This document shows, in pieces, positions 6,158 through 37,659 of a stretch of DNA of 37,683 bases. Each line of letters starts with the position of its first letter. Position 1 is the stretch's first letter. The DNA lies in NCBI GenBank assembly GCA_017549565.1, contig JAFYUI010000010.1, positions 1-37,683 of the forward strand, given 5' to 3'. The position numbers were made by a program, and so were the translations under genes. Under the pieces are notes generated by a model. That model was not told the origin of the DNA. It saw only the letters and a program-made list of their open reading frames with translations, and searched no databases. The DNA is from Clostridia bacterium. GTDB taxonomy: Bacteria; Bacillota; Clostridia; Oscillospirales; Acutalibacteraceae.

Positions 6158-8401
6158 TTACAAATCCAGCATTGCCTGTTCGGCGGTGCCGGTGGGCTTT
6201 TTTTGTCCTGCGGCGGGTAGGTTGCGGGTGCGATAGCGGTGCTCGCTATCTAAAGTTCCCTTTTCGTAAAGCTCAACCTCGCTAATGCGCTGACCCTTCT
6301 TTTGTGTCATAACCGCAACACCGCCGTTATCCTTGGTGGTCTTGGCGGGGATAGATGCAGTATTAACAATAAGCATTCGGCCGTTGGTTGATTTAAGCAA
6401 AATATCACGGTCTTCTTTAACAAACAAAATTGTGTGAATGGGATATTTTTCGCAATATGCCTTTATAAGCTTTTTGCGGTTGGTTTTGGTTACATAAGAC
6501 GATAGCGGAACACGGGAGATTTTGCCGTTATCAAAGACAAACACCATATGTCCCGAATAGTCGGTGGTTTCAACCATATAAACCGAATTTTCGCCCTCGT
6601 CATATTCGAGCTTAGCGGCAACATAATCACCCAAAACACTTGCCTTTGAATCGGCAAAGTCGATGGTTTTGCTTTTATAAACCTGTGCCTTGTTGGTGAA
6701 GAACAAAAGCTCGGAAGCATTGGTGGATTCAATAACTTGGGTGATTTCATCCCCCTCTTTAAGCTTTTGCTCACCGCTCATACGTAAAGACTGCGGTGTA
6801 ATCTTTTTAAAGTAGCCGTCCTTTGTGAAGAAAAGGGTTACGGGTGAATTATCAACCTCAATTTCAACCTTGTCAACCGCTTCGGTTTCGGCGCTAATAA
6901 TTTGGGTCTTTCTATCTCTTCCGTACTTATCAATAACCGTTTCAAGCTCTTTAATAATAATACGCTTAAGCTTTGTTTTGGAAGCCAAAATGCTTTCCAT
7001 TTCTTCAATTTCTTTAATTAAATTTTCAATGTCGGCGGTGCGCTTTAAAATATATTCGCGGTTTAAATGGCGAAGCTTAATTTCAGCCACATATTCCGCC
7101 TGAATTTCATCAATACCAAAGCCAATCATAAGGTTTGGCACAACCTCGGCCTCCTGCTCGGTTTCCCTTACAATTTTAATGGCTTTATCAATGTCTAAAA
7201 GTATTTTTTCAAGACCTTTTAAAAGGTGCAACCTATCCTTTGCCTTTGAAAGCTTGAAATAAACGCGGCGGCGAACACATTCCTCACGGTAGGCAACCCA
7301 TTCGCCTATAATTTCCTTAACACCCATAACACGAGGTGAGCCCGCAATAAGTATGTTAAAGTTACAAGCAAAGCTGTCTTCAAAGGGTGTCATTTTGATA
7401 ATCTTTTTCATAAGCTTATCAACATCGACACCGCGCTTTAAGTCGATAGTGATTTTTAAACCCTCAAGGTCGGTTTCATCACGAATGTCGTTAATTTCGG
7501 TAATCTTTTTGGCCTTTACAAGCTCAACCACCTTTTCAATAATCTGCTCACAGGTGGTGGTTGGGGGAATTTCGGTAATATCAATGCAGTTTGCCGATTT
7601 ATCATAGGTGTAAACACCCCTTACCTTAAAGCTGCCGCGACCTGTTTCATAAATTTTTTCCATATCATTGCGGTTGTAAAGCAACTGACCGCCTATTGAA
7701 AAGTCAGGCGCTATAAGTGTGTCGGCAACATTTATTTCATCATCTTTTATATAAGCAATGGTGGTTTCGCAAACCTCTTTTAAATTAAAGGAACAAATCG
7801 AGCTTGCCATACCTGCCGCAATACCCATGTTGGCATTAACAAGTATTGTTGGGAAGGTTACAGGGAATAATACCGGTTCTTTCATTGTGGCATCATAGTT
7901 GTCAACAAAATCAACCGTATCCTTATCAATATCGGCAAAAAGTTCGGCTGCAATGGGAGCAAGTTTTGCTTCGGTATAACGAGATGCGGCATAAGCCATA
8001 TCGCGTGAATATGCCTTACCGAATGAGCCCTTTGACATTACAAAGGGGTGCAAAAGTGCCTCGTTACCCTCAGAAAGACGCACCATTGTTTCATAAATTG
8101 CGGCATCACCGTGGGGGTTTAATTGCATAGTTCTACCCACAATATTTGCCGATTTTATTGTCTTGCCATTTAAAAGTCCCATGTTATACATTGTGTAAAG
8201 CAATTTGCGGTGCGACGGCTTAAAGCCGTCAATTTCAGGAATTGCACGGGACACAATAACGCTCATTGCATAGGGCATAAAATTGGTTTTCAGCGTTTCG
8301 GTAACAGGGCTTTCCACCACCGTGCCCGCCCCTGCAATATAAGCGTTGGCATTATTCTTCTTTTTGGGAGCATCCTGCTCTTTTTTCTTTCTTGGTGCCA
8401 T
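6158..8401 (-). CDS. parC: Type II DNA topoisomerase subunit A (ParC / GyrA-like)
   Basis: Breakage-reunion subunit that relaxes or decatenates DNA together with the ParE-like partner encoded just upstream. The catalytic tyrosine is Y142 in AASRYTEAKL. NPHGDAAIYETMVR (about 95-108) is the helix that faces the cleaved DNA, and GSPRVMGV lies further on. At 747 residues it is shorter than most GyrA proteins. Its C-terminal beta-pinwheel region (about 490-720) contains no QRRGGKG-type GyrA box, which favours topoisomerase IV or a second paralogue over gyrase. The N terminus has a lysine-rich extension. The ATG at 8401 is chosen because TTTGGAG lies 9 nt upstream and the longer frame starts with TTG inside it. 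parC versus gyrA naming is a judgement from the missing box and gene pairing. Confidence 0.85.
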   Translation of the reverse strand: MAPRKKKEQDAPKKKNNANAYIAGAGTVVESPVTETLKTNFMPYAMSVIVSRAIPEIDGFKPSHRKLLYTMYNMGLLNGKTIKSANIVGRTMQLNPHGDAAIYETMVRLSEGNEALLHPFVMSKGSFGKAYSRDMAYAASRYTEAKLAPIAAELFADIDKDTVDFVDNYDATMKEPVLFPVTFPTILVNANMGIAAGMASSICSFNLKEVCETTIAYIKDDEINVADTLIAPDFSIGGQLLYNRNDMEKIYETGRGSFKVRGVYTYDKSANCIDITEIPPTTTCEQIIEKVVELVKAKKITEINDIRDETDLEGLKITIDLKRGVDVDKLMKKIIKMTPFEDSFACNFNILIAGSPRVMGVKEIIGEWVAYREECVRRRVYFKLSKAKDRLHLLKGLEKILLDIDKAIKIVRETEQEAEVVPNLMIGFGIDEIQAEYVAEIKLRHLNREYILKRTADIENLIKEIEEMESILASKTKLKRIIIKELETVIDKYGRDRKTQIISAETEAVDKVEIEVDNSPVTLFFTKDGYFKKITPQSLRMSGEQKLKEGDEITQVIESTNASELLFFTNKAQVYKSKTIDFADSKASVLGDYVAAKLEYDEGENSVYMVETTDYSGHMVFVFDNGKISRVPLSSYVTKTNRKKLIKAYCEKYPIHTILFVKEDRDILLKSTNGRMLIVNTASIPAKTTKDNGGVAVMTQKKGQRISEVELYEKGTLDSEHRYRTRNLPAAGQKKPTGTAEQAMLDL

Positions 8402-8424
8402 ATAAAAATTCTCCAAATTTTTAA

Positions 8425-8550
8425 AGTAATAGGTAAAAAGTAAGAGTGAAGAAGTATGGTGTGTTGCCTCGCAACACGATTTATATCAGTGCCGAAGGCA
8501 CACATTAACTATTCACTTTTCACTCTTCACTGCTGATGCAACGCATCAGC
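8425..8550. repeat. Hairpin-rich palindromic repeat between parE and parC
   Basis: The outer parts are imperfect inverted repeats built of AGTGAAGA/GTGAAAAGT-like words: left about 8426-8455, right about 8508-8531. Three perfect small hairpins lie inside or at the edge: GTGTTGC-CTC-GCAACAC (8461-8477), GTGCC-GAA-GGCAC (8489-8501) and GCTGATGC-AAC-GCATCAGC (8532-8550). The last hairpin contains the parE stop codon. The composition differs from neighbouring intergenic DNA and looks like a dispersed, non-coding miniature repeat. Copy number cannot be judged from one window. Confidence 0.6.
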
Positions 8551-10528
8551 TAATGTCTGCCTCATCAATATAGAGGTAGCCGTTTTCTGAAATGTAATCT
8601 TTTCTGCCCTGTAAATTGTCGCCGAGCAGCAAGTCAAACATTTCGCTTGTTCTTTCGGCATCCTCAGGGAGTACCTTAATAAGTCGGCGGGTGTCAGGAT
8701 TCATAGTTGTTAAGTTCATCATATCGGGTTGGTTTTCACCAAGTCCCTTTGAACGCTGCAAATCATACTTTTCATCGCCGATTTTATCCAAAATGTCCTT
8801 TTTCTCATTTTCATCATAGGCGAAATAGGTCATTTTCTTGGTGTTAATTTCATAAAGCGGGGTTTCAGCGATAAACACCCTGCCCTCGCTTATAAGGGTG
8901 GGCATTAAGCGGTAAATCATTGTTAAAATAAGGGTGCGAATGTGGAAGCCGTCGACATCGGCATCGGTACAAATGATAATCTTATTCCAACGAAGATTAT
9001 TAAGGTCAAAGTTTGAAAGACCCTTGTTTGCTTTTGACTTAACCTCAACACCACAACCAAGCACTTTAAGCAAATCGGTAATAATTTCGCTTTTAAAAAT
9101 TTTATCATATTCGGCTTTTAGGCAGTTTAAGATTTTACCACGCACCGGCATAATCGCCTGAAAAGCGGCGTCGCGTGCCAATTTGCAAGAGCCCAAAGCC
9201 GAATCACCCTCAACTATATAAAGCTCACGCTCACTTACATCACGGCTGCGGCAGTCAACAAATTTTTGAACTCGGTCAACCATTGAATTGCTTGTGGCAA
9301 GTGTCTTTTTAAGGTTTATTCTTTCCTTTTCACTGCGTTCACGACTGCGCTTGTTAACAAGCACCTGGTCGGCAATTTTATCGGCCTCGGCCTTGTTTTC
9401 AATAAAGTAAATTTCTAACTGGTGGCGTAAAAAGTCAACCATTGCATCGTAAATAAACTTGTTTGTAATTGACTTTTTAGTTTGGTTTTCGTAAGAGGTC
9501 ATTGTCGAGAAAGAAGAAATAACCAAAACCAAGCATTCTTCAATGTCAGAAAATGTTACCTTGCTTTCGTTGTTTTTATATTTACCCGACTGCTTGATAT
9601 AATTATCAACCATACTTAAAAATGCACTTCTTGTGGCTTTTTCGGGCACACCGCCGTGTTCAAGCCAGCTTGAATTGTGATAATATTCACGCATTGGGGT
9701 TTTGTTAGAAAAGCTCATCGCAACATTGATTTTTACCTTATATTCAGGCTTGTCCTCGCGGTCGCGACCTTTTCTTTCAGTTTGCCAAAACTGTACGCCC
9801 GCCATTTTGTCTTCGCCAACAATTTCGTTTACATAGTCTTTAATGCCGTTGTTGTAAACAATTTCTTGTTGAATAAAGCGGCTTCCCTGCTGTTCACGAA
9901 AAACAAACACCAAACCATCGTTTACAATGGCTTGTCTTTTAAGGGTGTCTAAAAAATATGAAACGGGTATATCAATTTCGGTGAAAACATCCAAGTCGGG
10001 CTTCCACTTAATTTTTGTACCGGTGTCACGGCCTGTATACTCTTCCTTTTTTAGACCGCCAATGTTAAAGCCCTTTTCAAAATGAAGGTTATATTTATAT
10101 CCATCACGCTTGATTTCAACATCCATATATTCCGAAGAAAATTGAGTTGAGGCAAGACCCAAACCGTTAAGACCGATAGAATATTCATAATCGCCGCCGC
10201 TGTTGGTGTCATACTTACCGCCCGCATAAAGACTTTCAAAAAGCAAAACATAGTTATACTGCTCTTCCTTTTGGTTATAGTCAACAGGCGCACCACGGCC
10301 AAAGTCCTGCACTTCAATAGAACCGTCGGTGTATTTTGTCACGATAATTTTGTTGCCGTGACCCTCGCGCGCTTCGTCGATAGAGTTTGAAATTATTTCA
10401 AATACTGAATGCTGACAGCCATCAAGCCCGTCCGAGCCGAAAATAACCGCAGGGCGAAGTCGCACCTGGTCGGGCCCTTTAAGCTGTTTAATACTTTCAT
10501 TACCGTATTCTTGTTTGGTTTTTGCCAT
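8546..10528 (-). CDS. parE: Type II DNA topoisomerase subunit B (ParE / GyrB-like)
   Basis: ATPase subunit of the type II topoisomerase encoded with the downstream A subunit. The GHKL ATPase domain shows ISNSIDEAREG and DFGRGAPV. The TOPRIM domain shows ELYIVEGDSALGS, the metal-binding DADVDG and RSKGLGE. Several family signatures are divergent: EGDSALGS in place of EGDSAGG, PVRGKILN in place of PLRGKILN, and GENQ in place of GEMN/GEMD after RxKGLGE. Two ATGs compete: 10534 (4 nt from GAGG) and 10528 (10 nt from GAGG). I prefer 10528 because it begins MAKTKQEYG. The 3' end runs into the hairpin repeat, so the last codons may be repeat-derived. Confidence 0.87.
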   Translation of the reverse strand: MAKTKQEYGNESIKQLKGPDQVRLRPAVIFGSDGLDGCQHSVFEIISNSIDEAREGHGNKIIVTKYTDGSIEVQDFGRGAPVDYNQKEEQYNYVLLFESLYAGGKYDTNSGGDYEYSIGLNGLGLASTQFSSEYMDVEIKRDGYKYNLHFEKGFNIGGLKKEEYTGRDTGTKIKWKPDLDVFTEIDIPVSYFLDTLKRQAIVNDGLVFVFREQQGSRFIQQEIVYNNGIKDYVNEIVGEDKMAGVQFWQTERKGRDREDKPEYKVKINVAMSFSNKTPMREYYHNSSWLEHGGVPEKATRSAFLSMVDNYIKQSGKYKNNESKVTFSDIEECLVLVISSFSTMTSYENQTKKSITNKFIYDAMVDFLRHQLEIYFIENKAEADKIADQVLVNKRSRERSEKERINLKKTLATSNSMVDRVQKFVDCRSRDVSERELYIVEGDSALGSCKLARDAAFQAIMPVRGKILNCLKAEYDKIFKSEIITDLLKVLGCGVEVKSKANKGLSNFDLNNLRWNKIIICTDADVDGFHIRTLILTMIYRLMPTLISEGRVFIAETPLYEINTKKMTYFAYDENEKKDILDKIGDEKYDLQRSKGLGENQPDMMNLTTMNPDTRRLIKVLPEDAERTSEMFDLLLGDNLQGRKDYISENGYLYIDEADIS

Positions 10529-24942: not shown

Positions 24943-27156
24943 ATGAATATAAACAATATTAAAGAAAAGGTAAAAGGTTTTTTCACCGCCACACTTCCCC
25001 GCTTTTTAAAAACCAATTTGCCCGATTATTTTAAAAATAATTTTGAAATAACCACTACCAAGCCCTTAAAGGTTATCGCCTGTGTGCTTTGCCTTGCGGG
25101 TTTATTATTAACTATATTAAGAATTGATGCATTTAATGTCCTTAACATTAAAAACCGCTGGATACTTATGGCGCTTGATTTAGCTCTTCCATTTGTAATT
25201 GCCGCTGTAACGGCCTTTAATGTTAAAATAAAGCATAACCTCACCCATCAAATCGTCAGCTTTGTTTTGCTTCTTTTAATGCCCTTTGCAACAATGAGCA
25301 TTACCGAATGCCTTAACAATAAGTTTATTTTCAATATGACATCACTTGGTGTTTTGGGTAATTATGCCGTTATTTTAGTTTTAAATTTTGCTTTATTTGC
25401 CATTTCGGGCAGCTTTAAAATCACCTATCTTTCAATTAACACGGTGCTGTTTGGTCTTGCCATTGCCCACAGCTATGTTATGGATTTTCGTGGCACACCC
25501 TTTCAACCGATGGACTTTTTGAGCGTTGGCACAGCAGCAGGTGTTGCAAACACCTATAATTTTGCCCCCAGCCATAAGCTTATTACCGCTATACTTTTAT
25601 TTGTAATTCTAACAATAATTGTGCTGAAAATGCGCACACCAAAGTTTTCTCTTGTGACCAAAATTATTTCCCGTTCATTTACCGCAACCTTTTCAGCTGT
25701 GATTATAATTCTATTCTATGGAACAAGCGTGTTTACTGATTTGGGCGCTAAGCCGGACTTTTGGAATCAATCAAGAGGTTATAAAAACTATGGCTTTGTT
25801 TATAACTTTTTTGCAAATACAAGATATTTATTTATGTCCGAGCCAAACGATTACGACCCCGATAAAATTAAAGATTATATAAACCAAACTGTTGATAAAA
25901 ACGAAGACAAGGAAAACGAAAAGGTTAAACCAAACATTATTTGCATCATGAATGAATCCCTTTCGGATTTAAGTGTTCTTGGCAACCTTGAAACCAACCT
26001 TGAATATATGCCGTTTTTAAACAGCTTAACCAAAAATACTATAAAGGGCAACCTTTATGTACCGGTAATCGGTGCAGGCACATCTAACACCGAATTTGAA
26101 TTTTTAACAGGTCACTCAACCCATTTCTTGCCGTCGGGCAGTAATGCATATATGCTTTATGTTAAAAACCCGATGACATCCCTTGTTTCAACCTTAGAGG
26201 CACAAAATTATTCATCGTGGGCTTTTCACCCCTATCTTGCAAACGGATGGAACAGACCGTCGGTTTACAGTAATTTCGGCTTTAATGCCTTTACCGCTTT
26301 TGAGGATATTTTCGACATGTCCATTTGGGACAGTTATCTTGCAAGCGGAAACAACGCAAACTATTTGCAAGAGCTTGTGGACCAGCAATACCCCGGCTCT
26401 AATATGCTGCTTCGCCAATATATCAGCGATGATTATAACTATGATGTTATAATTGAAAACTATAAAAAGCGCGACAAATCTAAACCATATTTTGCATTTA
26501 ATGTTACAATGCAAAACCACGGCGGATATGCAACAAGCTGTGTAAACTTTAACGAAGCAATTCAAGCAACCTCAACAACAAAGCCGTATAATAAAGCCAA
26601 TAAGTATTTATCGCTTGTAAGAGCAAGTGACACCGCATTTAAAAAGCTTGTTGAATATTTTGAAGAGGTTAAACAACCCACCGTTATTTGTATGTTCGGT
26701 GACCACCAGCCAAATGTTGAGCCCGAATTTATTTCCGAGGTTTTGGGTGTTAAAAACCTTTCCGACCTTACAATTGAGCAGGAGCAAAAGCGTTACACCA
26801 CACCGTTTTATATTTGGGCTAATTTCGATATCGAGGAAGAAACCATTGAAAGATTAAGCGTTAACTATCTTTCATCCTTGGTTTTAGAAACCGCAGGGCT
26901 TGAGCTTACCGAATATAACAAATACCTTTTAAAGCTTCGTGAGGTTTTACCTGTTATCAACACCGCAGGTTATATTGATAACGAGGGTAACCATTATAAA
27001 TGGAGCGATGTTTCCCCTTATAGCGACATTATTAAGGAATATGAAAAAATTCAGTATAACTGCATTTTCGACCAAGAAAATATCGATACCGAAATATTCT
27101 TTATAAAGGATTATTTGCACGAGCCGTCTGATTTAACAAGGGGTGAGGATGAATGA
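24943..27156 (+). CDS. LTA synthase family membrane phosphotransferase (sulfatase fold)
   Basis: Integral membrane enzyme of 737 residues. Several hydrophobic segments lie at about 40-262 (for example LKVIACVLCLAGLLLTILRI and ILLFVILTIIVLK), followed by an extracellular sulfatase domain (about 325-650). Candidate catalytic and metal residues are E338 in IMNESLSDL, T380 or T383 in GAGTSNTEFE, and D587-H588 in FGDHQP, matching the Glu/Thr/Asp-His set of LtaS. In known systems it moves glycerol-phosphate onto lipoteichoic acid or a glycolipid; here the acceptor is inferred. A GAAAGGA ribosome-binding site precedes the ATG. Its stop overlaps the NUDIX start by 4 bp (ATGA). Confidence 0.88.
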   Translation: MNINNIKEKVKGFFTATLPRFLKTNLPDYFKNNFEITTTKPLKVIACVLCLAGLLLTILRIDAFNVLNIKNRWILMALDLALPFVIAAVTAFNVKIKHNLTHQIVSFVLLLLMPFATMSITECLNNKFIFNMTSLGVLGNYAVILVLNFALFAISGSFKITYLSINTVLFGLAIAHSYVMDFRGTPFQPMDFLSVGTAAGVANTYNFAPSHKLITAILLFVILTIIVLKMRTPKFSLVTKIISRSFTATFSAVIIILFYGTSVFTDLGAKPDFWNQSRGYKNYGFVYNFFANTRYLFMSEPNDYDPDKIKDYINQTVDKNEDKENEKVKPNIICIMNESLSDLSVLGNLETNLEYMPFLNSLTKNTIKGNLYVPVIGAGTSNTEFEFLTGHSTHFLPSGSNAYMLYVKNPMTSLVSTLEAQNYSSWAFHPYLANGWNRPSVYSNFGFNAFTAFEDIFDMSIWDSYLASGNNANYLQELVDQQYPGSNMLLRQYISDDYNYDVIIENYKKRDKSKPYFAFNVTMQNHGGYATSCVNFNEAIQATSTTKPYNKANKYLSLVRASDTAFKKLVEYFEEVKQPTVICMFGDHQPNVEPEFISEVLGVKNLSDLTIEQEQKRYTTPFYIWANFDIEEETIERLSVNYLSSLVLETAGLELTEYNKYLLKLREVLPVINTAGYIDNEGNHYKWSDVSPYSDIIKEYEKIQYNCIFDQENIDTEIFFIKDYLHEPSDLTRGEDE

Positions 27157-28429: not shown

Positions 28430-28514
28430 GCACCTGTGGTGAAACTGGCAAACACGTACGGTTCAGGTCCGTATGTCGCAAGACTTGCAGGTTCAAGTCC
28501 TGTCAGGTGCACCA
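28430..28514 (+). tRNA. tRNA-Leu (anticodon CAG), CCA encoded
   Basis: The acceptor stem GCACCTG (28430-28436) pairs fully with CAGGTGC (28504-28510), followed by A and the encoded CCA. The anticodon stem TACGG/CCGTA encloses loop TTCAGGT with anticodon CAG, reading CUG leucine codons. A long variable arm GTC-GCAA-GAC marks a class II tRNA. The T arm is GCAGG-TTCAAGT-CCTGT with one G-U pair. It is a single-gene unit with its own promoter and terminator. Confidence 0.97.
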
Positions 28515-28557
28515 AAATTCTCAACGAGATATTTGTCTTGTTGGGAATTTCTTTTTT
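28515..28557 (+). terminator. Terminator of tRNA-Leu
   Basis: A 15-bp stem with G-U pairs (28515-28529 with 28536-28550), a 6-nt loop, and a T-rich tail CTTTTTT. It starts immediately after the CCA. Confidence 0.88.
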
Positions 28558-28584
28558 ATATAACAGGACTTGAACCTTAAGAAA

Positions 28585-28617
28585 AATCACCTTATAACTT
28601 TTTGTTATAAGGTGATT
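28585..28617 (-). terminator. Terminator of the SGNH/MBOAT cassette
   Basis: Perfect 14-bp stem AATCACCTTATAAC / GTTATAAGGTGATT with a 5-nt loop, followed on the minus strand by TTTTTC. It lies 9 nt past the last gene of the cassette. Confidence 0.88.
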
Positions 28618-28626
28618 AAAATTTAG

Positions 28627-30054
28627 TTATTCAAGTATTTCAACATATTGCATCATACCTGTCCAGAAATAATCAGTAGCAAATTCGCTGTACCTATCCG
28701 CAGGTACGTAAACAAGACATTCCTTCGGCATTTTCGTAACCGCTTCGGGATTTATAGGCAATGCCGACGGTGCGAGATGTATTTCAATGGCACGAAGCGC
28801 GGGGCAATTGCTCAAAGCATTTGAGGTAAAGCTCTTAACTGCCGCATCTTCTTTTATAATAACACGCTCTAAAACATCAGAGCCCGCAAACGCATTATCA
28901 CCTATCACTAAAACCGATTTTCCGTCATATTCTTTGGGAATAGTAAGGGTTTTCTCTTGTTTGCCTGCTTCAGAAAGGCCGACAATGGATAGTCCTCCGT
29001 CAATCTCCTCGAAAATAAAATGTTTTGCATTGTTATCATTATTAGATTGTGTTGCAAAAAAATCAGCGGGACGGGTTGGCGGTGTGTATTTTTCGGTTTC
29101 AATTTGTTCGGTTTTTCCAAGCTCGCGCAACAAGTCATCAGCTAATAGTGAAGTACGTTGCAAAGCACCACACGAATTTAAATGAAAATTAGTGTCATAA
29201 AAATATGCTGAATCTAAAATATAGTCATCGATATCACTGATTAAAGGAAAGTCAAGTTGATTAGTAAGTGCTTCATAAAACTCTTCTTTTTCCTCATCCG
29301 TCGATACAACCGAATCCGAATTTATAGGTGAAAAACCAAAATATACTGTAGCCCCACGAAGTTTACACTCATCAGCATAGCGGTTTAAATAATCGATAAA
29401 TTCTTTATCCAACAAATCCGTTGTCAGCGAAACAGGCATAGAAATATCATAATTTGTTGGCATAATATTATACGGTCGCTCAACCGCAATATCACCATAT
29501 TCGTTAAAAGATGCCTTTGCATAGATGCCTGATGGGGCGGGCTTGGTATTCTTTTTGATAAAACCGCGCTTTTCAGCGGCGAATTCTGGCATAACTGCAA
29601 TCAACTTGCCCCAATTTGAAAAACCAACATCTTTAAACATAGACAAATCACAGTCTAAGGCCTGCCACATACTGTGTGCATTATAATATAATGAATATGT
29701 CTGTTTATCGGTTTCGGGACAGATAACAACTATGTCGCCCTTTTTTATATGAGAACGGGACATATCAAGCATAGCTTTGGTGCCAATTGTGGCATATAAG
29801 CCATAATTTACAACAGGCATTCCAACATATTCATGAAGCTTTTGGGAGTCCAGTCCAAAAGCAAGATTAGAACCGCCGATTAAAACAATTTTTTCTTCCT
29901 TGATGGATGACAACCTTTCGTGTTTGTCTTTAAGTTCGGCAAGAAAGGTTTGGTCATACTGACAGGGCGCAGTCAAGGTTGTGGTGGTTACCACAGTAAG
30001 CGGTGTAACTAAAATTATTATCGCAAGGACAAATATTATTACAGTTTTTTTCAT
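28627..30054 (-). CDS. Exported SGNH-hydrolase-like protein with C-terminal BspA-type LRR
   Basis: A 475-residue protein with an N-terminal hydrophobic segment (about 4-24) that is a signal or anchor without a lipobox. Residues about 50-310 resemble DltD/AlgX-like SGNH proteins. The nucleophile block is IGGSNLAFG (S62), a VVNYG block follows at about 81, and the C-terminal block is DTNFHLNSCGALQ (H291). The residue two before the histidine is Asn (N289), not the usual Asp, although D287 is close. About 345-475 is a BspA-like leucine-rich repeat (IPKEYDGKSVLVIGDNAFAG and following). It is last in the cassette, 18 nt after the MBOAT gene. O-acyl transfer or surface-polymer modification is inferred from context. 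Confidence 0.72.
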   Translation of the reverse strand: MKKTVIIFVLAIIILVTPLTVVTTTTLTAPCQYDQTFLAELKDKHERLSSIKEEKIVLIGGSNLAFGLDSQKLHEYVGMPVVNYGLYATIGTKAMLDMSRSHIKKGDIVVICPETDKQTYSLYYNAHSMWQALDCDLSMFKDVGFSNWGKLIAVMPEFAAEKRGFIKKNTKPAPSGIYAKASFNEYGDIAVERPYNIMPTNYDISMPVSLTTDLLDKEFIDYLNRYADECKLRGATVYFGFSPINSDSVVSTDEEKEEFYEALTNQLDFPLISDIDDYILDSAYFYDTNFHLNSCGALQRTSLLADDLLRELGKTEQIETEKYTPPTRPADFFATQSNNDNNAKHFIFEEIDGGLSIVGLSEAGKQEKTLTIPKEYDGKSVLVIGDNAFAGSDVLERVIIKEDAAVKSFTSNALSNCPALRAIEIHLAPSALPINPEAVTKMPKECLVYVPADRYSEFATDYFWTGMMQYVEILE

Positions 30055-30072
30055 ATATTCTGCCCCGCTTTC

Positions 30073-31500
30073 TTAAAATTGGAAATAAATAAACGCGCTT
30101 GAGCCATTACTTGCTAAAAGCATAAGCCACGCAAATATAATTGCCCACAATAAATACATCGATGTGCCGCCAACCAGCTTTGCACCGCTGGAACATTCAT
30201 AATTTGCAAGGGTTAACTTGCGGTCTAAAAGAACCATAATTACGATTGAAAGAATCATAATAAGCGCACCGCTAAATGTTACACCAATATCAGCTACAAA
30301 TGTAGAAAGTCCAAATGTTGTAAACAATTTTTTAAGTATTAACAGAAGTTCGGTTACATTGTTTGCGCGAAAAAAAATCCATGCGAAACACACCAAAACA
30401 AAGGTTAAAGCCGTGCGAAGCATACGAACATATCGGTCTTTGGTGTCAATACCCATTTGAGAATATAATTTTTCACGCTTTTTATAGGTCAAATCGCCAA
30501 GGACACGGTAAATACCATGGAGTAAACCCCAAAGAATAAAGGTCCACTCTGCCCCATGCCACAAACCGCTAACCAAAAAGACGATAAATAAATTCACAAG
30601 TCGGCGAGCATTACCCTTTCGGTTTCCCCCCAGCGGGATGTAAAGATAATCTTTAAACCAACTTGATAAGCTTATATGCCAACGGGCCCAAAAATCACGA
30701 ATGTTTTCGGCCGAATATGGACGGTCGAAGTTTTGCATCAGGCGATACCCCATAATTCGAGCACAGCCGATGGCTATATCGGTATATCCCGAAAAGTCAC
30801 AATAAATTTGCACCGCAAAAAGCAGCGTGGCAACAATAATTGCAAGACCGCCTGTTTTACCCGGGTTATTATATACCGCGTTTACATATAAAGCTGCAGT
30901 GTCGGCAACCACAATCTTTTTGAAAAAGCCCGCAAGCATGCGCTTTGCCCCTATATATAAATCATCCGAATTAAATTTATGCTCGGCATGAAGTTGGGGC
31001 AAAAGATTATCAGGGCGTTCAATGGGGCCCGCTACTAATTGCGGAAAAAACGAAACAAACAATGCATAGTAAAAGAAATTGTGTTCTGCCTTAATATTAC
31101 CGCGATACACATCTATACTGTATGACAAGGTTTGGAATGTATAAAACGAAATACCAACAGGCAAAACCAACTGCAAAGTAAGGTCCGCACCAAAGAAATT
31201 ACCGATAGTACCCGCCACAAAGTTGTAATATTTAAAGAAAAACAATACCGAAAGCGAAGCAATAACCGAAATAACCATCCATAAGGTTTTTTGCTTTGGT
31301 TTCTTTTCTATCAAAAGCCCCGATGCATACGAAACTGCCGTTGTAAAAAGTATCAAGAAAAACAGTTTGGCGTTCCAAGTCATATAAAAATAATAACTTG
31401 AAATCAATAATGGAATCCATCTGTATTTGCGTGGAACGACAAAATTTAAAACTGCGACTATGGGATAAAATAATAAAAATTGTATAGAATTAAAATTCAA
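30073..31500 (-). CDS. MBOAT-family membrane O-acyltransferase (AlgI/DltB-like)
   Basis: A 475-residue polytopic membrane protein with ten or so hydrophobic segments. Family signatures include VLPVGISFYTFQTLSYSIDV, IRDFWARWHISLSSWF (H275), DYLYIPLGGNRKG, and FLVSGLWHGAEWTFILWG with the presumed catalytic H315. Known relatives move acyl groups across the membrane onto alginate, teichoic acid or peptidoglycan with SGNH partners. The start is a TTG at 31500, 7 nt after GGAG, and it overlaps the stop of the preceding small membrane gene as TTGA, so the two are coupled. The acyl donor and acceptor are not identifiable. Confidence 0.92.
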   Translation of the reverse strand: MNFNSIQFLLFYPIVAVLNFVVPRKYRWIPLLISSYYFYMTWNAKLFFLILFTTAVSYASGLLIEKKPKQKTLWMVISVIASLSVLFFFKYYNFVAGTIGNFFGADLTLQLVLPVGISFYTFQTLSYSIDVYRGNIKAEHNFFYYALFVSFFPQLVAGPIERPDNLLPQLHAEHKFNSDDLYIGAKRMLAGFFKKIVVADTAALYVNAVYNNPGKTGGLAIIVATLLFAVQIYCDFSGYTDIAIGCARIMGYRLMQNFDRPYSAENIRDFWARWHISLSSWFKDYLYIPLGGNRKGNARRLVNLFIVFLVSGLWHGAEWTFILWGLLHGIYRVLGDLTYKKREKLYSQMGIDTKDRYVRMLRTALTFVLVCFAWIFFRANNVTELLLILKKLFTTFGLSTFVADIGVTFSGALIMILSIVIMVLLDRKLTLANYECSSGAKLVGGTSMYLLWAIIFAWLMLLASNGSSAFIYFQF

Positions 31501-31790
31501 TTATTTTCTCCCTCCCCTTTATCTTCCCTAACGTTAGGTTTTGGAGAAAGAAATAACGAAAGTGCACCGCTTAATAAAACAAGCAATAATGCATCCGAAA
31601 GGGTGCCGCTATTCATAAGAATTACGGTAATTGCGGCAGCGTGCCCCACAACACCGATGCCGCTTAAAACTAAATCAATAGTAGAAGAAAAGTTTTTCTT
31701 TTTCTTTAAAAAATAAACAATAATTTGCCAAGACAACAAAACTATGGGAAATAAAAGAAAAATTGGTTGTTTATAATAAAGCATATCCAT
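31497..31790 (-). CDS. Small integral membrane protein of the SGNH/MBOAT cassette
   Basis: A 97-residue protein I do not recognise. It has about three hydrophobic helices (IFLLFPIVLLSWQIIVYFL; about 41-60, LVLSGIGVVGHAAAITVILM; and LSDALLLVLLSGALSLFL) and a charged C-terminal tail. A GGGGAAAG site precedes the ATG. It sits 12 nt after the LRR-SGNH lipoprotein gene, and its stop overlaps the MBOAT start by 4 bp. The coupling suggests a stoichiometric partner or accessory of the MBOAT, by analogy with small Dlt-operon membrane proteins, but no homology is claimed. Confidence 0.7.
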   Translation of the reverse strand: MDMLYYKQPIFLLFPIVLLSWQIIVYFLKKKKNFSSTIDLVLSGIGVVGHAAAITVILMNSGTLSDALLLVLLSGALSLFLSPKPNVREDKGEGENN

Positions 31791-31802
31791 AGCACTTTCC
31801 CC

Positions 31803-33542
31803 TTATTTTACGCCTATGCCTGCATTTTTAATATCATTTGCCAGTTGTTTTGTGTGCATTTTTCTACCCACCGCATTAAGGTGATAATCGGTATTGGAAA
31901 AATATTCACCGTTGTAAATATAATTGCGAATATCCGAAATCATTTGACAGCTAACAGTATCTGCAGTCCATTTATTGTAAGTATTATACGCATTTTCATT
32001 TAAGCTGTCAGCTTCTATATTGTTTTTGTTATGCGGTGGATAGCTGAATAAAATCTTGGCGTTGGTTTTCTTTATTCCGTCGATTTTACGGTTTAAATTT
32101 TTAATAAATTCTTTTGGAATAACCGTTTCATTAAAACGGAAATAACCATTAGCGCCATAACGGTAATTGGGTGAATTTAAAATACTGGTTAAATTTGCAC
32201 GGTCGCCAAACTTATCTAACTCCTTATCCCTATCTTGCCAAGTGAGTTGAGGCATTCTTGCTGACTGTGCACAATACTGTCCCAGGTTATCAAATACCTC
32301 GGTATATGTGGACATATCAACATTTTCCACAAGGTTATAGCAAGAAGAAAAACCTTGGAAAGTCACACTTGGAATTTCGGTGTTACCGTTGGTGTGGTAT
32401 GCATACGGGCCGTATTGTTCGGGCGAGAAAATTACAATATCGTTTTTGGAAAGAAGAGGTGCTATCGCATCCAAATAAACAAGCAAATTCATATTTGCAT
32501 TGATTCCGAAGTTAACAACCTCATAGTTATCTTCAAAAAGACTCTCCATATATTCGGTTTCAATTCCGTATAAAGCACTTGAACCGGCAACAACAATAAT
32601 ACGTTTTTGCCCTTTGGTTTTTATAAGACGCTCATATTTTATGCCATAACCATAGCTTGTTACATATCTGGGTGTTTTTCCCGCACACAAGCGTACAGTT
32701 TTTATATTGCAACCCTTAAACGAAGCGTCACTAATTGTTCTTATATTATCATAAAGCGTAACTGTTTTAAGGTTTGAACAAGAGGCAAATGCGTTTTCCT
32801 CCACCACATTCACTGATGATGTAATATGTACTTCGGTTAAGGCTTTATTGTTTTTAAAAGCATCCGCAGCAATGCCGGTCACAGTTTTACCGTCAATTTC
32901 ACGTGGAATATACACTACGCTGTCACTACCCTTATAGGAAGTGATATATACCGCCGAGGAGCTTTTTTGAGCGGTTTTAAAATCCGCGGGATTTGTTTCC
33001 TTGGCCCAAACACAGTATAAATTTTGCACTGTACCGGTAGAAGGCAAAATGTATTTATAGCCCGGGCGGATAAGCTCACCCTTACCGTTTGAATTATAGG
33101 AATATCCCAACAAAACATATCCCTCGCGCACAAAAGCACCATCGTCTTCTCTGCCGTATGGCATCTTCCAATACTCAGTATTAAAGTCGGTTTGGGCAGC
33201 ACTGTATTCGCTTATGTTATAAAAGATTGAATAATTTTTTATATCTTCATGGACAGTAAGCGAATCAGTGTCTATTATCGAGTTATTAGGGGTTGAGGAT
33301 GTATTAGGTGTAGATATAAAAATATCATCTAATGAAAAATCGGGTGTTGATGAGGAATCAGAGGTCGAAGGAGAAGTGGTATTTGTCGACGGTGTCGACT
33401 GTGCATCAGATGGTGTTGATGACTCACCAGAGACTGTGCCACCGCCCGCATCCTGAACATATTGGGGTTTTTTGTCGCTCGCGCAGGCAACAAGAGAAAA
33501 TAATAGTATAAGTGTCATTAAAACCGCTAAAAATTTACGCAT
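31803..33542 (-). CDS. Surface lipoprotein: InlB-type repeat, LRR, then SGNH domain
   Basis: A 579-residue lipoprotein. Residues 1-20 are a signal ending in lipobox LVAC (C20). About 33-95 is a Ser/Thr/Pro-rich spacer like those that span cell walls. About 103-182 resembles a Listeria-Bacteroides (Flg_new) repeat with GYVLLGYSYNSNGKG. About 190-290 is a BspA-like LRR (VVYIPREIDGKTVTGIAADA). About 310-579 is an SGNH-like domain with VVAGSSALYG (S321/S322), VVNFGINA and NTDYHLNAVG (D552, H554, the DxH dyad form). I chose the ATG at 33542 because GGAGG sits 7 nt upstream. It is the first gene of the cassette. Enzymatic activity is inferred from motifs only. Confidence 0.78.
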   Translation of the reverse strand: MRKFLAVLMTLILLFSLVACASDKKPQYVQDAGGGTVSGESSTPSDAQSTPSTNTTSPSTSDSSSTPDFSLDDIFISTPNTSSTPNNSIIDTDSLTVHEDIKNYSIFYNISEYSAAQTDFNTEYWKMPYGREDDGAFVREGYVLLGYSYNSNGKGELIRPGYKYILPSTGTVQNLYCVWAKETNPADFKTAQKSSSAVYITSYKGSDSVVYIPREIDGKTVTGIAADAFKNNKALTEVHITSSVNVVEENAFASCSNLKTVTLYDNIRTISDASFKGCNIKTVRLCAGKTPRYVTSYGYGIKYERLIKTKGQKRIIVVAGSSALYGIETEYMESLFEDNYEVVNFGINANMNLLVYLDAIAPLLSKNDIVIFSPEQYGPYAYHTNGNTEIPSVTFQGFSSCYNLVENVDMSTYTEVFDNLGQYCAQSARMPQLTWQDRDKELDKFGDRANLTSILNSPNYRYGANGYFRFNETVIPKEFIKNLNRKIDGIKKTNAKILFSYPPHNKNNIEADSLNENAYNTYNKWTADTVSCQMISDIRNYIYNGEYFSNTDYHLNAVGRKMHTKQLANDIKNAGIGVK

Positions 33543-33576: not shown

Positions 33577-33605
33577 ATAATATCACAACTTTTATTTAAA
33601 AACAA
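33577..33605 (-). promoter_or_regulatory. Promoter of the SGNH/MBOAT cassette
   Basis: -35 TTGTTT (33600-33605), 17-nt spacer, -10 TATTAT (33577-33582). A short inverted repeat AATAAC-TT-GTTATT (33604-33617) touches the -35 and could be an operator. Confidence 0.6.
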
Positions 33606-33765: not shown

Positions 33766-35382
33766 TTAAAAGTCTGAATAATATGTTTCGTCCGGCTCAC
33801 TAAAATGGCTTTGACAAATTGTGCTAAACCAAGGGTTTTCTTCTATATAATCATAAAGCGCGTCATAAGCCAACGCTTTTGGTATGTTAAAATGCGCAAA
33901 GTCCTTATTTATTTCATTTGCCTTTAAATCGTCCACCGTAAAGTATACGGCATCCTCCATATTATCAAAATAATCATATAAATATGCCTTTGCCAAATAA
34001 CCTTGCGCCTCAAGCGCAATATCAAAATCCTCAGTTGAAGCAAGTTTTACAATATAAGGTATGCCTTCATACCCAAGTTCATAAAGCCCTTGTATATCAA
34101 TTGTGTCAAGTCTTTGGGTTTTATAACTTTCATAGTTATAACGTGCACAAACATGATTCACATTTGCTGTGCCGAGTATTAGTATAATACTGCCGGCCGT
34201 AATTAAAGCAGTTTTTATAATATTTATTTTTTTAATATAAATTCGCAAAATCACGCTTATAAAAACAATACTTAAAAACAGCATAAACGCGCTTGTTGTA
34301 ACGCGAAGCACCGTCATACCGTAGGTGCCGATGTAAAGCACCATTTTTGAGATTGCCGTAGCAATAATGATAAGAGTAAACACCGATATAAATGTTAATA
34401 TTGCTTTTATGGTGTGGCACACTTTGCCGTTTTCTTTTTTAGCAAGAAATAAAGCCAAAAATACTATCAAAAGGTTTATCACAGCTATAACGCACATTTC
34501 AAAAAATCCCTTGCGGGCATACTGGGCATAAGTAATATCCCCATCGGGTAAAAAGCCCTTAAAAGCACTGAAAAAATAAGCGAGCTGTGAAAAAAGATAA
34601 AGAACGTAGCTTACGCTTATAGCAGATAAAAATGAAATTAAATATGTGTTTTCAATACCTTTAAAATTACCTTCTTTAATCTTTGCTACACGGCCCGTTT
34701 TAAGAGAAAAACCGTATGAAATAAAGAACGGACAAATTGACACGCCGAATATAGTTTTCAAAAAGAAAGTAAATGTATTGCTGAAAATACTGCTCATCAT
34801 ACCTTTGAAGGCATCATCAGAAGATATAAGCAGCGGCACCACCACAAAAAGAACAGGAATTGCACAAAGCAAACCGATAAATGCTTTGCCGATTGTTTTT
34901 TTATTATCCGAATTGCTTGAAAAAAGCGACCTTAAAGTAATGCCTATATTGCCAAGGGTTGAAGCCACCGAATAAAAAATTCCAAAAGTTTGGCGGTCAC
35001 CCTTTGCTGTGCCATTTGCAAAGCCATCGAAACAAACAAGTGACAACAAAAAGCCGATAATAACACCGAAAAATCGCACACTGCCATTTGTGGTGCATAT
35101 AAATATTGCACCGTTTGCCAAAGCCAAAAGTCCGCTTATAAGGGATAAAAATCTCACCTTACCGCTTTTGGCAAAATACACACCAAATAAAATAATAGTT
35201 AAGGCAGATGCTATTAAATATCCAAGGGCAAAACCACTGAATATGCCAAACAAAGAAAAGAATATGACCGCAATAAACGCACATACTGCAAAAACCGTAT
35301 CACTTTTAGTAAGATTAAAAAGCGTTGGTAATGAATCGTTTTGTAATTCTTCGTTTTCTAAAACATTATTATTTTCTTCCAT
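33766..35382 (-). CDS. DUF4173/DUF4153-like polytopic membrane protein
   Basis: A 538-residue protein. A charged N-terminal stretch of about 27 residues is followed by some eleven hydrophobic helices. A soluble C-terminal tail of about 100 residues contains an LYELGYEGIPYIVKLAS segment and many acidic and aromatic residues. It resembles DUF4173/DUF4153 membrane proteins of unknown function in Clostridia. The ATG at 35382 has AAGGAG 8 nt upstream, within the end of the XRE gene. It is last in the DUF2975-XRE-DUF4173 operon. I cannot assign a biochemical role. Confidence 0.72.
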   Translation of the reverse strand: MEENNNVLENEELQNDSLPTLFNLTKSDTVFAVCAFIAVIFFSLFGIFSGFALGYLIASALTIILFGVYFAKSGKVRFLSLISGLLALANGAIFICTTNGSVRFFGVIIGFLLSLVCFDGFANGTAKGDRQTFGIFYSVASTLGNIGITLRSLFSSNSDNKKTIGKAFIGLLCAIPVLFVVVPLLISSDDAFKGMMSSIFSNTFTFFLKTIFGVSICPFFISYGFSLKTGRVAKIKEGNFKGIENTYLISFLSAISVSYVLYLFSQLAYFFSAFKGFLPDGDITYAQYARKGFFEMCVIAVINLLIVFLALFLAKKENGKVCHTIKAILTFISVFTLIIIATAISKMVLYIGTYGMTVLRVTTSAFMLFLSIVFISVILRIYIKKINIIKTALITAGSIILILGTANVNHVCARYNYESYKTQRLDTIDIQGLYELGYEGIPYIVKLASTEDFDIALEAQGYLAKAYLYDYFDNMEDAVYFTVDDLKANEINKDFAHFNIPKALAYDALYDYIEENPWFSTICQSHFSEPDETYYSDF

Positions 35383-35387
35383 CAAAA

Positions 35388-35594
35388 CTACTCCTTATCT
35401 GTATATTTAATTATATCACCCGGTTGGCAATCAAGTGTTTTGCAAATGGCTTCAAGCGTTGAAAAGCGTATTGCCTTCGCCTTTCCTGTTTTAAGTATAG
35501 AAAGATTTGCAGGCGTAATTCCAATTTTTTCTGAAAGCTCAAGCGAAGTCATTTTGCGCATTGCCAACAAAACATCTAAATCCACTTCAATCAT
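35388..35594 (-). CDS. XRE-family (YozG-like) transcriptional regulator
   Basis: A 68-residue protein that is almost entirely a helix-turn-helix: LDVLLAMRKMTSLELSEKIG, then ITPANLSILKTGKAKAIRFS, then TLEAICKTLDCQPGDIIKY. This is the short Cro/CI-type regulator commonly found beside DUF2975 membrane proteins. The gene lies 14 nt after the DUF2975-like gene, and its stop codon overlaps the ribosome-binding site of the downstream gene. A tandem operator-like repeat overlaps the operon promoter (36122-36165), so autoregulation is a reasonable inference. Confidence 0.92.
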   Translation of the reverse strand: MIEVDLDVLLAMRKMTSLELSEKIGITPANLSILKTGKAKAIRFSTLEAICKTLDCQPGDIIKYTDKE

Positions 35595-35608
35595 TTTTCA
35601 CCCTCGCT

Positions 35609-36076
35609 TTATATAGTAAGTTCATTTTCAGTTTTAATTTCTACTGCATTTTGCATAACGTTTTTAACAACACGAAGCATAAGACCCACAAAGGCCGCCG
35701 CAATGGCTATAAAACCAAAAGGTACATAAAAAATACCGCCAACAAAGGTTATAGCAGCCACCGCAAAACAACACCAAGAAATACGGCGAAGATATTTGGC
35801 GTTTGCAGTTATAAAAATATCACCCTTTTTGATATTAAAAAGCAGTTTTAAAAGACTGTAAAGTGTTATATAGGCAAATACACTGCTGGGATAATAGCAA
35901 GCACAAAACAATGTGGTGATTGTTTTAAGCGCAACACCGCCCTCTTTCCAGCCACGATAAATACCAAACCACATATTTACTGCCCAAGGGCCTAAAAACA
36001 GCCCTGTTGTCAGTATGACCGTGAAGGCAAAACAAACAATAATTGACAAAGTAACCGACCTTTTTCTATTCCACAT
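35609..36076 (-). CDS. DUF2975-like membrane protein
   Basis: A 155-residue protein with about four transmembrane helices (residues about 8-30, 50-75, 95-117 and 118-138) and a short charged C terminus. The layout and its pairing with a YozG-like XRE gene match the DUF2975 family, of unknown function. I chose the ATG at 36076 (MWNRKRSVTLS) because GGAGG lies 7-8 nt upstream; a longer frame to 36136 runs through the promoter. It is the first gene of the operon. Confidence 0.8.
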   Translation of the reverse strand: MWNRKRSVTLSIIVCFAFTVILTTGLFLGPWAVNMWFGIYRGWKEGGVALKTITTLFCACYYPSSVFAYITLYSLLKLLFNIKKGDIFITANAKYLRRISWCCFAVAAITFVGGIFYVPFGFIAIAAAFVGLMLRVVKNVMQNAVEIKTENELTI

Positions 36077-36107
36077 AAAATTACCTCCAAAACCATCTTT
36101 TGACATT

Positions 36108-36136
36108 ATAATAACACCAAAATTATCGTTTGTCAA
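36108..36136 (-). promoter_or_regulatory. Promoter of the DUF2975-XRE-DUF4173 operon
   Basis: -35 TTGACA (36131-36136), 17-nt spacer, -10 TATTAT (36108-36113) on the minus strand, 32 bp before the chosen start. The -35 lies inside the first operator-like repeat. Confidence 0.8.
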
Positions 36137-36414: not shown

Positions 36415-37659
36415 TTAAATCTGCTTGTCCTTAAAGAATTCACCCAAGCTTGTAAACTCTTTCTTTTTTAGTTCATTGGTCACGTCGCAATAAATATCCA
36501 TCGTTGTACTGATATCAGCGTGGCCTAAAACATCCTGAATTACCTTTATATTGATACCCGACTCACATAGCCGTGTAGCAAAGGTGTGTCTCAAACTGTG
36601 GCAACTAAAGGGCGGCAACAGAACGGGATCTTTTTCTCCTTTGAGCAACACTTCATCATTACAATCACGGATGATTCTTCGAATGGCTTTGTTGAGTGTT
36701 CCTTGATGCTGAACATCACCATAGCGATTTATAAAGATAAAATCCGTATAGCAATCAACAATCGCTTTGCACTTAACCCCGGCATCCTCTTGGTTTTGCT
36801 TTTCAAGTAGGAACGCTTCTTTTACATCATCCATCATCGGTACGGTTCGTTCACCGGCTTTGGTCTTAGGTGAGTTTATGCTAAAAGAACAGCCGTTGCC
36901 GTCACCGTGATTGTAGTATACCAAGGTGTGATTGACGTGGATAAGTCCTTCGTCCAAATCAATGTCGCACCACCGTAGTCCTATCAATTCACCAACACGC
37001 AATCCCGTGCCAAGCATAATAGCAAACACAGGATACCAATGCCGATACACCGGGTGATTTTTAAGGAAGTTAATGAACAGCTGTTGTTCAGGGATAGTAA
37101 GTGCCTTACGCTTTTCTACTTGAAAATTGTGGGACTGTTTCAGTTCTTTCAGCATATTGTCGGTGGGATTAAGACGTATGTAACCATCATCCACAGCCAA
37201 GTTAAACACTTGATGCAGAACCGTATGCACGTTGTCAATGGTTGCTATGGTCAAAATTCTTTCGTCTGCAAGGCGGTTATAAAACCTTTTTACATCAGAT
37301 TTTCTGACATTCGCAATCCGAAGCTTGCCGAATGTGGGGCGCACAAACATATTGTACATATACTTGTAGTTCTGAAAGGTGTTGTGTTTCAAACCGCGTT
37401 TCAGATCACACCACAGGTCAAAAACTTCGTTGACCGTTATCAAACGAATTTCTGTTTTAATGCCGTCCCTTTTATCAAGGATAATTTGCTCTTCTCGTTC
37501 ACGAAGCTCCTCAAGGGTGCCTGCGTATATCGAGTGGCGCTTACCATCGGGAGTGCTCCAGCGGTAATCATAAATTCCGTCTGCTCTTTGGGATTCACCC
37601 TTGCGGAGTGTAACCCGATCCTTATCTAATCTTCTACCTTTACCTTTCTTTGCAGTCAT
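36415..37659 (-). CDS. Tyrosine recombinase / integrase of an integrative element
   Basis: A 414-residue integrase. The N-terminal part (about 1-60, DYRWSTPDGKRHSIYAG) resembles the Tn916-type arm-DNA-binding domain. A SAM-like core-binding domain follows at about 70-160. The catalytic domain shows TGLRVGELIGLRW (Arg), HSLRHTFATRL (His-x-x-Arg), LGHADISTT (His) and the nucleophile tyrosine in MDIYCDVT. A GAAAGGAG site precedes the ATG. The gene points leftwards, so the rest of the element should extend right beyond the window. Its left boundary lies in 36286-36414. Confidence 0.95.
   Translation of the reverse strand: MTAKKGKGRRLDKDRVTLRKGESQRADGIYDYRWSTPDGKRHSIYAGTLEELREREEQIILDKRDGIKTEIRLITVNEVFDLWCDLKRGLKHNTFQNYKYMYNMFVRPTFGKLRIANVRKSDVKRFYNRLADERILTIATIDNVHTVLHQVFNLAVDDGYIRLNPTDNMLKELKQSHNFQVEKRKALTIPEQQLFINFLKNHPVYRHWYPVFAIMLGTGLRVGELIGLRWCDIDLDEGLIHVNHTLVYYNHGDGNGCSFSINSPKTKAGERTVPMMDDVKEAFLLEKQNQEDAGVKCKAIVDCYTDFIFINRYGDVQHQGTLNKAIRRIIRDCNDEVLLKGEKDPVLLPPFSCHSLRHTFATRLCESGINIKVIQDVLGHADISTTMDIYCDVTNELKKKEFTSLGEFFKDKQI

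Follow-up and report, generated by a model that had tools for sequence, protein, structure and literature searches.

The stretch of DNA analyzed here, termed the window, consists of 37,683 nucleotides (nt) of contig JAFYUI010000010.1 from a Clostridia bacterium (GenBank assembly GCA_017549565.1; genome G000 below). It carries a cassette of four genes, designated A, B, C and D, which lie in this 5' to 3' order on the minus strand from 33542 to 28627 (Table 1). They encode a membrane-bound O-acyltransferase (MBOAT), a small membrane protein and two proteins that combine an SGNH-like domain with leucine-rich repeats (LRRs). We consider it probable, at roughly 75%, that the cassette is a stand-alone system for O-acylation at the cell surface. 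The open reading frames (ORFs) bear out the gene spacing given in an earlier reading of the letters of the window (the original prediction), with 12 nt between A and B, an overlap of 4 nt between B and C, and 18 nt between C and D. For gene A a longer frame with a TTG start extends to 33605. The terminator assigned to the cassette also proved strong, its stem being equaled in none of 200 shuffled sequences. The promoter placed upstream of A fared less well: its letters are present, but it is not among the 25 sites that a promoter consensus scan found in the window, and it is not established. The 25 sites are themselves in no clear excess over shuffled sequences (mean 19.2, standard deviation 4.6).

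Table 1. Features of the four-gene cassette in the window (aa, amino acids).
Feature	Coordinates	Strand	Details
Gene A, lipoprotein with LRR and SGNH-like domain	31803-33542	-	579 aa, ATG at 33542
Gene B, small membrane protein	31497-31790	-	97 aa
Gene C, MBOAT O-acyltransferase	30073-31500	-	475 aa; TTG start inside TTGA overlap with B
FIYFQF shuttle motif codons and stop codon of gene C	30073-30093	-	
Gene D, SGNH-like protein with LRR	28627-30054	-	475 aa
Intrinsic terminator of the cassette	28585-28617	-	14-pair stem, -17.6 kcal/mol
Claimed promoter, TTGTTT-17-TATTAT	33577-33605	-	letters present; missed by consensus scan

The product of gene C matches the MBOAT family of Pfam (PF03062, E 3.2e-25) and is the single MBOAT in G000. 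Both signatures claimed for it were found, RWHIS from residue 273 and WHGAEW within LWHGAEW, which includes the conserved His315. The protein is related to DltB, yet it scores under the DltB cut-off (180 versus 375 bits). Its C-terminus is FIYFQF, a hexapeptide of the FXYXXF type whose tyrosine is Tyr472. Such a hexapeptide terminates 77 of the 81 MBOATs compared (loci and genomes are given our own L and G numbers); three of the four without it, L077, L106 and L107, are cut at contig ends, and the fourth, L086, has an ambiguous base before its end. PMC12148441, which like the other papers cited here is represented by excerpts, reports that PatA acetylates the tyrosine of its own C-terminal FXYXXF motif, that PatB accepts the acetyl group from an FXYXXF peptide, and that other MBOATs of envelope polymers also carry the motif, which acts as an acyl-tyrosine shuttle in PatA and DltX.

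To place the cassette among its relatives we used the best 80 of 308 MBOAT loci related to C, taken from GTDB genomes. In 27 of the 80 all four genes occur in the order A-B-C-D, a count that includes L086 with its broken C and some loci in which a contig end truncates A or D. The original prediction had been staked on the gene order recurring in Clostridia. It recurs in these loci and in further genomes described below, which rules out a chance arrangement. L077 holds A-B-C and then reaches its contig end, while L064 and L065, whose MBOATs are close relatives, hold B-C alone, with no A or D in the fetched stretch near 7600-9473. Among the other 50 MBOAT loci, a D-type SGNH protein follows the MBOAT in 10 (8 of them included in alignment A1, below), 2 have a weak D-type match (21-22 bits), 2 have an ALGX match, and 36 show no match within 6.5 kilobases to the SGNH profiles made here.

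At E 1e-10, a profile of the D SGNH-like domain matched 18 of the 394 genomes searched in the order, one of them G000. We examined 17 further stretches, two of which (G279 and G357) look like the same records as L060 and L075. All four genes are present in G329, G331, G338, G351, G359 and G416. G309, G335 and one locus of G403 have A, C and D with no B match, and at another G403 locus the genes run B-C-A-D, the B there being weak. The cassette of G315 is divided over two contigs, C and D are the only cassette genes found in G368 and G240, and G019 has a fragment of A at a contig edge. Gene A also varies: L073 and L075 have three tandem A genes each, and the A protein of G416 (1222 aa) contains two SGNH-like domains and two LRR stretches. 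The cassette is one unit kept in Clostridia. A search of open-licence papers returned none joining MBOAT, leucine-rich repeat and SGNH, and none joining SGNH, leucine-rich repeat and O-acetyltransferase.

Protein A is a lipoprotein, as its lipobox LVAC with Cys20 indicates. A Ser/Thr-rich linker and an InlB-like repeat region were identified by reading the sequence; Pfam calls no InlB-like repeat in the window copy, unlike in some relatives. BspA-type LRRs follow at residues 220-287 (LRR_5, E 7.4e-15), and a C-terminal SGNH-like domain has Ser321, Glu375, Asn550, Asp552 and His554 as its key residues. Pfam finds LRR_5 in all 32 A rows searched (a 33rd, the truncated L054 copy, was omitted) and InlB/Listeria-Bacteroides-type repeats in some of them (PF09479 in 13, PF18998 in 11), window A being in neither group. 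Protein D has an N-terminal hydrophobic anchor, again seen by reading, then an SGNH-like domain with Ser62, Glu114, Asp287 and His291, and a short C-terminal LRR region at about 350-475. In window D the LRR_5 match stays below the gathering score (18 versus 27.7 bits, E 0.0027). The D profile matches LRR structures (4gt6, E 1.1e-28), and Pfam calls LRR_5 in 15 of the 34 rows of alignment A1, which comprises 8 D-type proteins from other MBOAT loci and 26 cassette D proteins, two of the 28 (L066 and L086) having been omitted as fragments. Two D proteins depart from this plan: one in L278 (4991-7123) has a DUF4234 membrane region fused at its N-terminus, and one of 731 aa in L285 (578-2773) has a longer C-terminal part with LRR_5.

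The catalytic positions of the SGNH-like domains are strongly conserved. Counting only rows that cover the position (gaps remove 1 of the 28 D rows for Ser and 2 for His), the serine is present in 27/27 D and 33/33 A rows, and the histidine in 26/26 and 33/33. Block V of D reads D-[TS]-N-[FY]-H in 26 of 26 rows (DTNFH in window D), placing an acid at -4 from the histidine. Window A has NTDYH, and every one of the 33 A rows has an acid at -4 or -2; Asp or Glu occupies -2 in all 14 rows with Asn at -4, versus 7 of the 19 rows with Asp at -4 (Fisher p 1.6e-4, uncorrected for kinship). At the place of block III both proteins have Pro-Glu, with the glutamate in 27/27 D and 33/33 A rows and the proline in 26/27 and 33/33. 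Comparison by hhalign shows the two SGNH-like domains to be homologous (probability 100, E 3.7e-48), and A and D are paralogues.

Pfam calls no SGNH family, PF04914 included, in either window protein. Of the original claim of SGNH blocks and BspA-like LRRs in both proteins flanking B and C, and of the Pfam search proposed with it for LRR_5 together with SGNH, DltD or DHHW, the motifs and the LRRs hold (LRR_5 by Pfam in A, sub-threshold in D), with no SGNH family called. We infer the SGNH assignment from the block motifs and from weak profile matches. Aligned locally by hhalign with the DltD, DHHW and ALGX profiles made here, A and D score 29.5-40.8; nine column-shuffled profiles per query give 8.3-16.3, and the unrelated MBOAT profile gives 18.8 with D and 13.9 with A. 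When profile searches of the PDB were limited to the SGNH-like domains, A matched DltD at E 0.038 and 0.84, and D gave no DltD, its lysophospholipase L1-like esterase match (E 2.1) standing behind three unrelated ones. Full-length A and D retrieved LRR proteins, and A also DltD at E 0.085. The A relative in G416 has a sub-cut-off match (17.4 versus 29.1 bits) to DUF1574, which is counted among the SGNH families in the excerpts of PMC9487903. ALGX (PF16822) gave weak matches in 4 of the 30 members of set A3, with a best E of 0.013.

Several further observations on A and D weigh against the proposed system. Block III lacks its usual Asn in both proteins, and the block V acid fits neither DxxH nor, in D, DxH. 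The local hhalign probabilities to known SGNH families are low (7-52), with the His half covered. In global mode D with ALGX reached a probability of 89, and the other five pairs gave 11 or less. No SGNH structure appeared under E 0.01 in PDB profile searches with A or D. The excerpts of PMC9487903 and PMC4148444 describe AlgX, AlgJ and DHHW as circularly permuted, with His before Ser. In A and D Ser precedes His, an order that would fit half-matches to ALGX and DHHW; the DltD match is equally half. A and D do not belong to DltD, DHHW or AlgX.

BspA-type LRRs and InlB-like repeats are common in adhesins, and the SGNH fold of A and D is assigned from sequence only. The two could accordingly be mainly adhesins in which the SGNH-like domain is structural, with the MBOAT acting alone or on lipids. 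This seems to us very improbable, given the serine and histidine present in every covering row of both proteins, the constant acid near the histidine of A, and the retention by C of a motif that serves an SGNH partner in PatA.

Gene B of the window encodes three hydrophobic segments by a simple hydropathy scan; among 27 relatives scored in the same way, 19 have three and 8 have two. A Pfam search of 25 members gave scattered weak matches only, the most common in 4 of the 25. The FXYXXF motif was not seen in the listed B sequences, that of the window included, and we therefore reject B as DltX. The B-C overlap is 4 nt in 27 of the 28 loci having A-B-C (25 measured directly, L063 and L078 from separately derived coordinates) and 11 nt in L080. 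For the B profile we used the window and 27 cassette loci, defining B in these loci as the longest ORF between A and C, so that matches in those 27 are by construction. The independent matches are L063, L064, L065 and the genomes examined beyond the 80 loci. Beside MBOATs outside the cassette clade (see below) no B was found, the best B-profile match in the other 50 loci having an E of 0.38. Because B overlaps C by 4 nt and is kept at loci without A and D, it is most likely a subunit of C. The original prediction did not mention the conservation of B or its distinctness from DltX, nor the FXYXXF terminus of C, nor that A and D are neither DltD nor DHHW.

Because C ends in the shuttle hexapeptide shown for PatA, the best reading of the cassette is a relay from acyl-coenzyme A (acyl-CoA) through Tyr472 and an SGNH serine to a surface acceptor, on the strength of homology with PatA/PatB. 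Acyl-CoA in the cytoplasm would donate its acyl group, by way of His315, to Tyr472 on the outer side. From the acylated tail of C the group would pass to the catalytic serine of D, held by its membrane anchor, or of the lipid-anchored A, or of both, and these SGNH-like proteins would transfer it to the acceptor. The group is probably acetyl. B would be a small membrane subunit, probably holding or stabilizing the MBOAT complex, and the LRR and InlB-like modules would bring A and D to the acceptor or to one another. Since D-type proteins adjoin MBOATs also at loci without A, D is likely the core transferase; A could be either a second transferase, as AlgX is beside AlgJ, or an esterase. The sequence evidence supports what was originally envisaged, an O-acylation system of the MBOAT-SGNH type with LRR modules on both SGNH-like proteins. 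Either a wall glycan or a surface protein may serve as the acceptor. A more specific version, in which the LRR and InlB-like modules mark a protein or glycoprotein acceptor and not a wall glycan, we regard as unlikely. The cassette would then be a layered protein O-acylation machine decorating bacterial or host surface proteins in the gut, with the MBOAT and its new small membrane subunit doing the charging, D as core transferase, and A as a set of swappable or multiplied lipoprotein transferases.

On an MBOAT tree of 81 rows, made by a quick method, the cassette state (ABCD or BC) appears as one change. The branch that separates the cassette clade from L097/L104, where C occurs with D and no A or B was found, has an approximate likelihood ratio (SH-aLRT) support of only 78, which counts against the proposed system; the next branch, with L097/L104 inside, has 99. 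A tree of 56 SGNH-like domains (26 A, 23 D and 7 LRR-less D-type) resolves each group as one clade (100/98, 98/91 and 96/83, respectively). Across 28 cassettes, with tandem A genes represented by the copy nearest C, the distances of C, D and the A SGNH-like domain correlate at r 0.87-0.90 (permutation p 0.001). Their medians are 0.75 for A, the most diverged, 0.58 for D and 0.44 for C. Single origin and joint descent of the cassette fit these data best.

The same trees bear on the role of A. In an alternative scheme D would add the acyl group and A would be the matching esterase that removes it, making the level of acylation reversible. SGNH folds act both as transferases and as esterases (excerpts of PMC9487903), A and D form separate clades, and A is lipid-anchored and the more diverged of the two. 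Yet the distances of A track those of C and D, Glu replaces the block III Asn in both proteins and makes A no more like a canonical esterase than D, and the tandem copies in L073 and L075 would mean several esterases per transferase. We give this scheme, with the deacylation by A that the original prediction allowed, an appreciable but minor chance.

The nearest known counterparts are PatA/PatB and PatA1/PatB1, which O-acetylate peptidoglycan and a secondary cell wall polymer. In both an MBOAT works with a separate SGNH protein (excerpts of PMC12148441 and PMC9487903), and PatA has its FXYXXF shuttle at the C-terminus, as C does (PMC12148441). PatB1 differs in being a circularly permuted DHHW protein with a TDHHW motif (PMC9487903), whereas the cassette proteins have Ser before His. 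The cassette also pairs its MBOAT with two SGNH-like proteins instead of one, each bearing LRRs, and adds a small membrane protein. No DHHW match (PF14286) was found in G000; 26 of 39 genomes of the order searched have one.

The alginate O-acetylation system AlgI/AlgJ/AlgX/AlgF resembles the cassette in having one MBOAT, two SGNH proteins and a further partner, and also in the membrane tether of AlgJ and the binding module of AlgX (excerpts of PMC4148444). It differs in the circular permutation of AlgJ and AlgX, in the carbohydrate-binding module of AlgX, where the cassette has LRR and InlB-like modules, and in polymer-synthesis genes, since none were seen travelling with the cassette. AlgF, unlike B, is not known as a small membrane protein. 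ALGX (PF16822) has no match in G000.

Teichoic acid D-alanylation by DltX/DltB/DltD likewise involves an MBOAT, an SGNH protein and a small membrane protein, and C is related to DltB. In Dlt the shuttle motif is on DltX (excerpts of PMC12148441), whereas in the cassette it is on C, not B. The best DltA match in G000, a genome rated 96.25% complete, scores 121.8 bits against a cut-off of 559.85, which 2 of 14 control genomes exceed. D-alanylation, with D-Ala as the cargo, is unlikely, since no DltA passes the cut-off. DltD (PF04914) has no match in G000 and matches 5 of 59 genomes of the order. With one MBOAT, no DltA over the cut-off and no DltD, DHHW or ALGX match, the cassette is the only candidate MBOAT-SGNH system in G000 among the families searched.

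The original prediction had suggested a tie of the cassette to an LtaS-like gene at 24943-27156, which would make it a system for acylation or D-alanylation of lipoteichoic acid. That gene ends 1.5 kilobases from the cassette, and the resemblance of C to DltB points the same way. Set against this are the lack in G000 of a DltA over the cut-off and of a DltD match, a shuttle motif fused to C instead of borne by a DltX-like protein, and the distribution of the genes. Of 37 genomes searched in the genus, G000 among them, 33 have the LtaS-like gene, and the profile of the D SGNH-like domain matches 2 of 70 (G000 and the contig-edge fragment in G019). The specific tie is not borne out, nothing in this analysis favors lipoteichoic acid as the acceptor, though it may be one, and we hold a lipoteichoic acid system to be decidedly unlikely.

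According to the excerpts of PMC12148441, MBOAT-SGNH relays have been established or suggested for peptidoglycan, alginate, cellulose and secondary wall polysaccharides. The cassette would extend this acyl relay to a sporadic, self-contained unit of gut Clostridia. It would also add a family of SGNH-like proteins missed by Pfam, a small membrane protein that accompanies an MBOAT and has no family assignment, and LRR modules in the place held by the carbohydrate-binding module of AlgX. Its chemistry would be of a known kind; its architecture, SGNH-like family and protein B are undescribed as far as our searches go. The tandem or doubled A beside a single MBOAT and a single D suggests that one charging enzyme can serve several transferases.

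Relatives of the LtaS-like gene show 46-95% identity per match within the genus of the window, versus at most 39% in the other genera searched, which places the contig in the genus. The G019 fragment of A is 51% identical to window A and 85% identical to the A of L055. Of 60 genomes searched by the LtaS-like gene the nearest is G016 (95%), and it has no cassette at this locus. There LtaS, NUDIX and pseudouridine synthase genes precede a 4-alpha-glucanotransferase, a binding-protein-dependent transport system accompanied by a LacI-family regulator, an oppositely oriented tRNA-Leu, an ABC-2 pair and a tRNA synthetase of class II (D/K/N), which we read as lysS. The line of the window may have gained the cassette by transfer, or others may have lost it; both fit. 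The patchy distribution of the cassette favors transfer.

Few other genes recur beside the cassette. Apart from the cassette genes, the largest group among 294 ORFs of 30 loci spans 7 loci and consists of ABC ATPases grouped via matches common to that of the window; the next, in 5 loci, consists of ORFs antisense to the cassette. When 24 ORFs flanking the cassette in the window were compared with 30 relative loci, two had matches, the ABC ATPase (shown at 25-37% identity) and a TIM-barrel protein (L054). What the loci visibly share is thus limited to the four genes; in the 30 loci no further family, whether of polymer genes or others, was seen travelling with the cassette, which counts against the proposed system. 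Carriage on a plasmid or phage was rejected, D having no match in plasmids and one partial match (28.8%) in a phage collection, to an unannotated record.

Upstream of the cassette, at 33766-36136, are two uncharacterized proteins, DUF4153 and DUF2975, for which no match was found in the 30 relative loci. Just past its other end, at 28430-28576, lies a tRNA-Leu(CAG), 14 nt of whose tail recur there in inverted form (28490 and 28563). In G016 the oppositely oriented tRNA-Leu has a second tRNA tail alongside, so that the spot looks rearranged. The window was found to hold no second copy of a 23-base stretch of tRNA-Leu. At the contig end (36188-37683) lies a copied 3' end of the gene for a class II tRNA synthetase, taken to be lysS, which matches G016 at 98.6% over 73 nt; a tyrosine integrase (36415-37659) comes after it. 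The integrase is unsupported as carrier of the cassette, as it sits beyond the copied gene end, and it probably marks an integrative element inserted at the tRNA synthetase gene, separate from the cassette.

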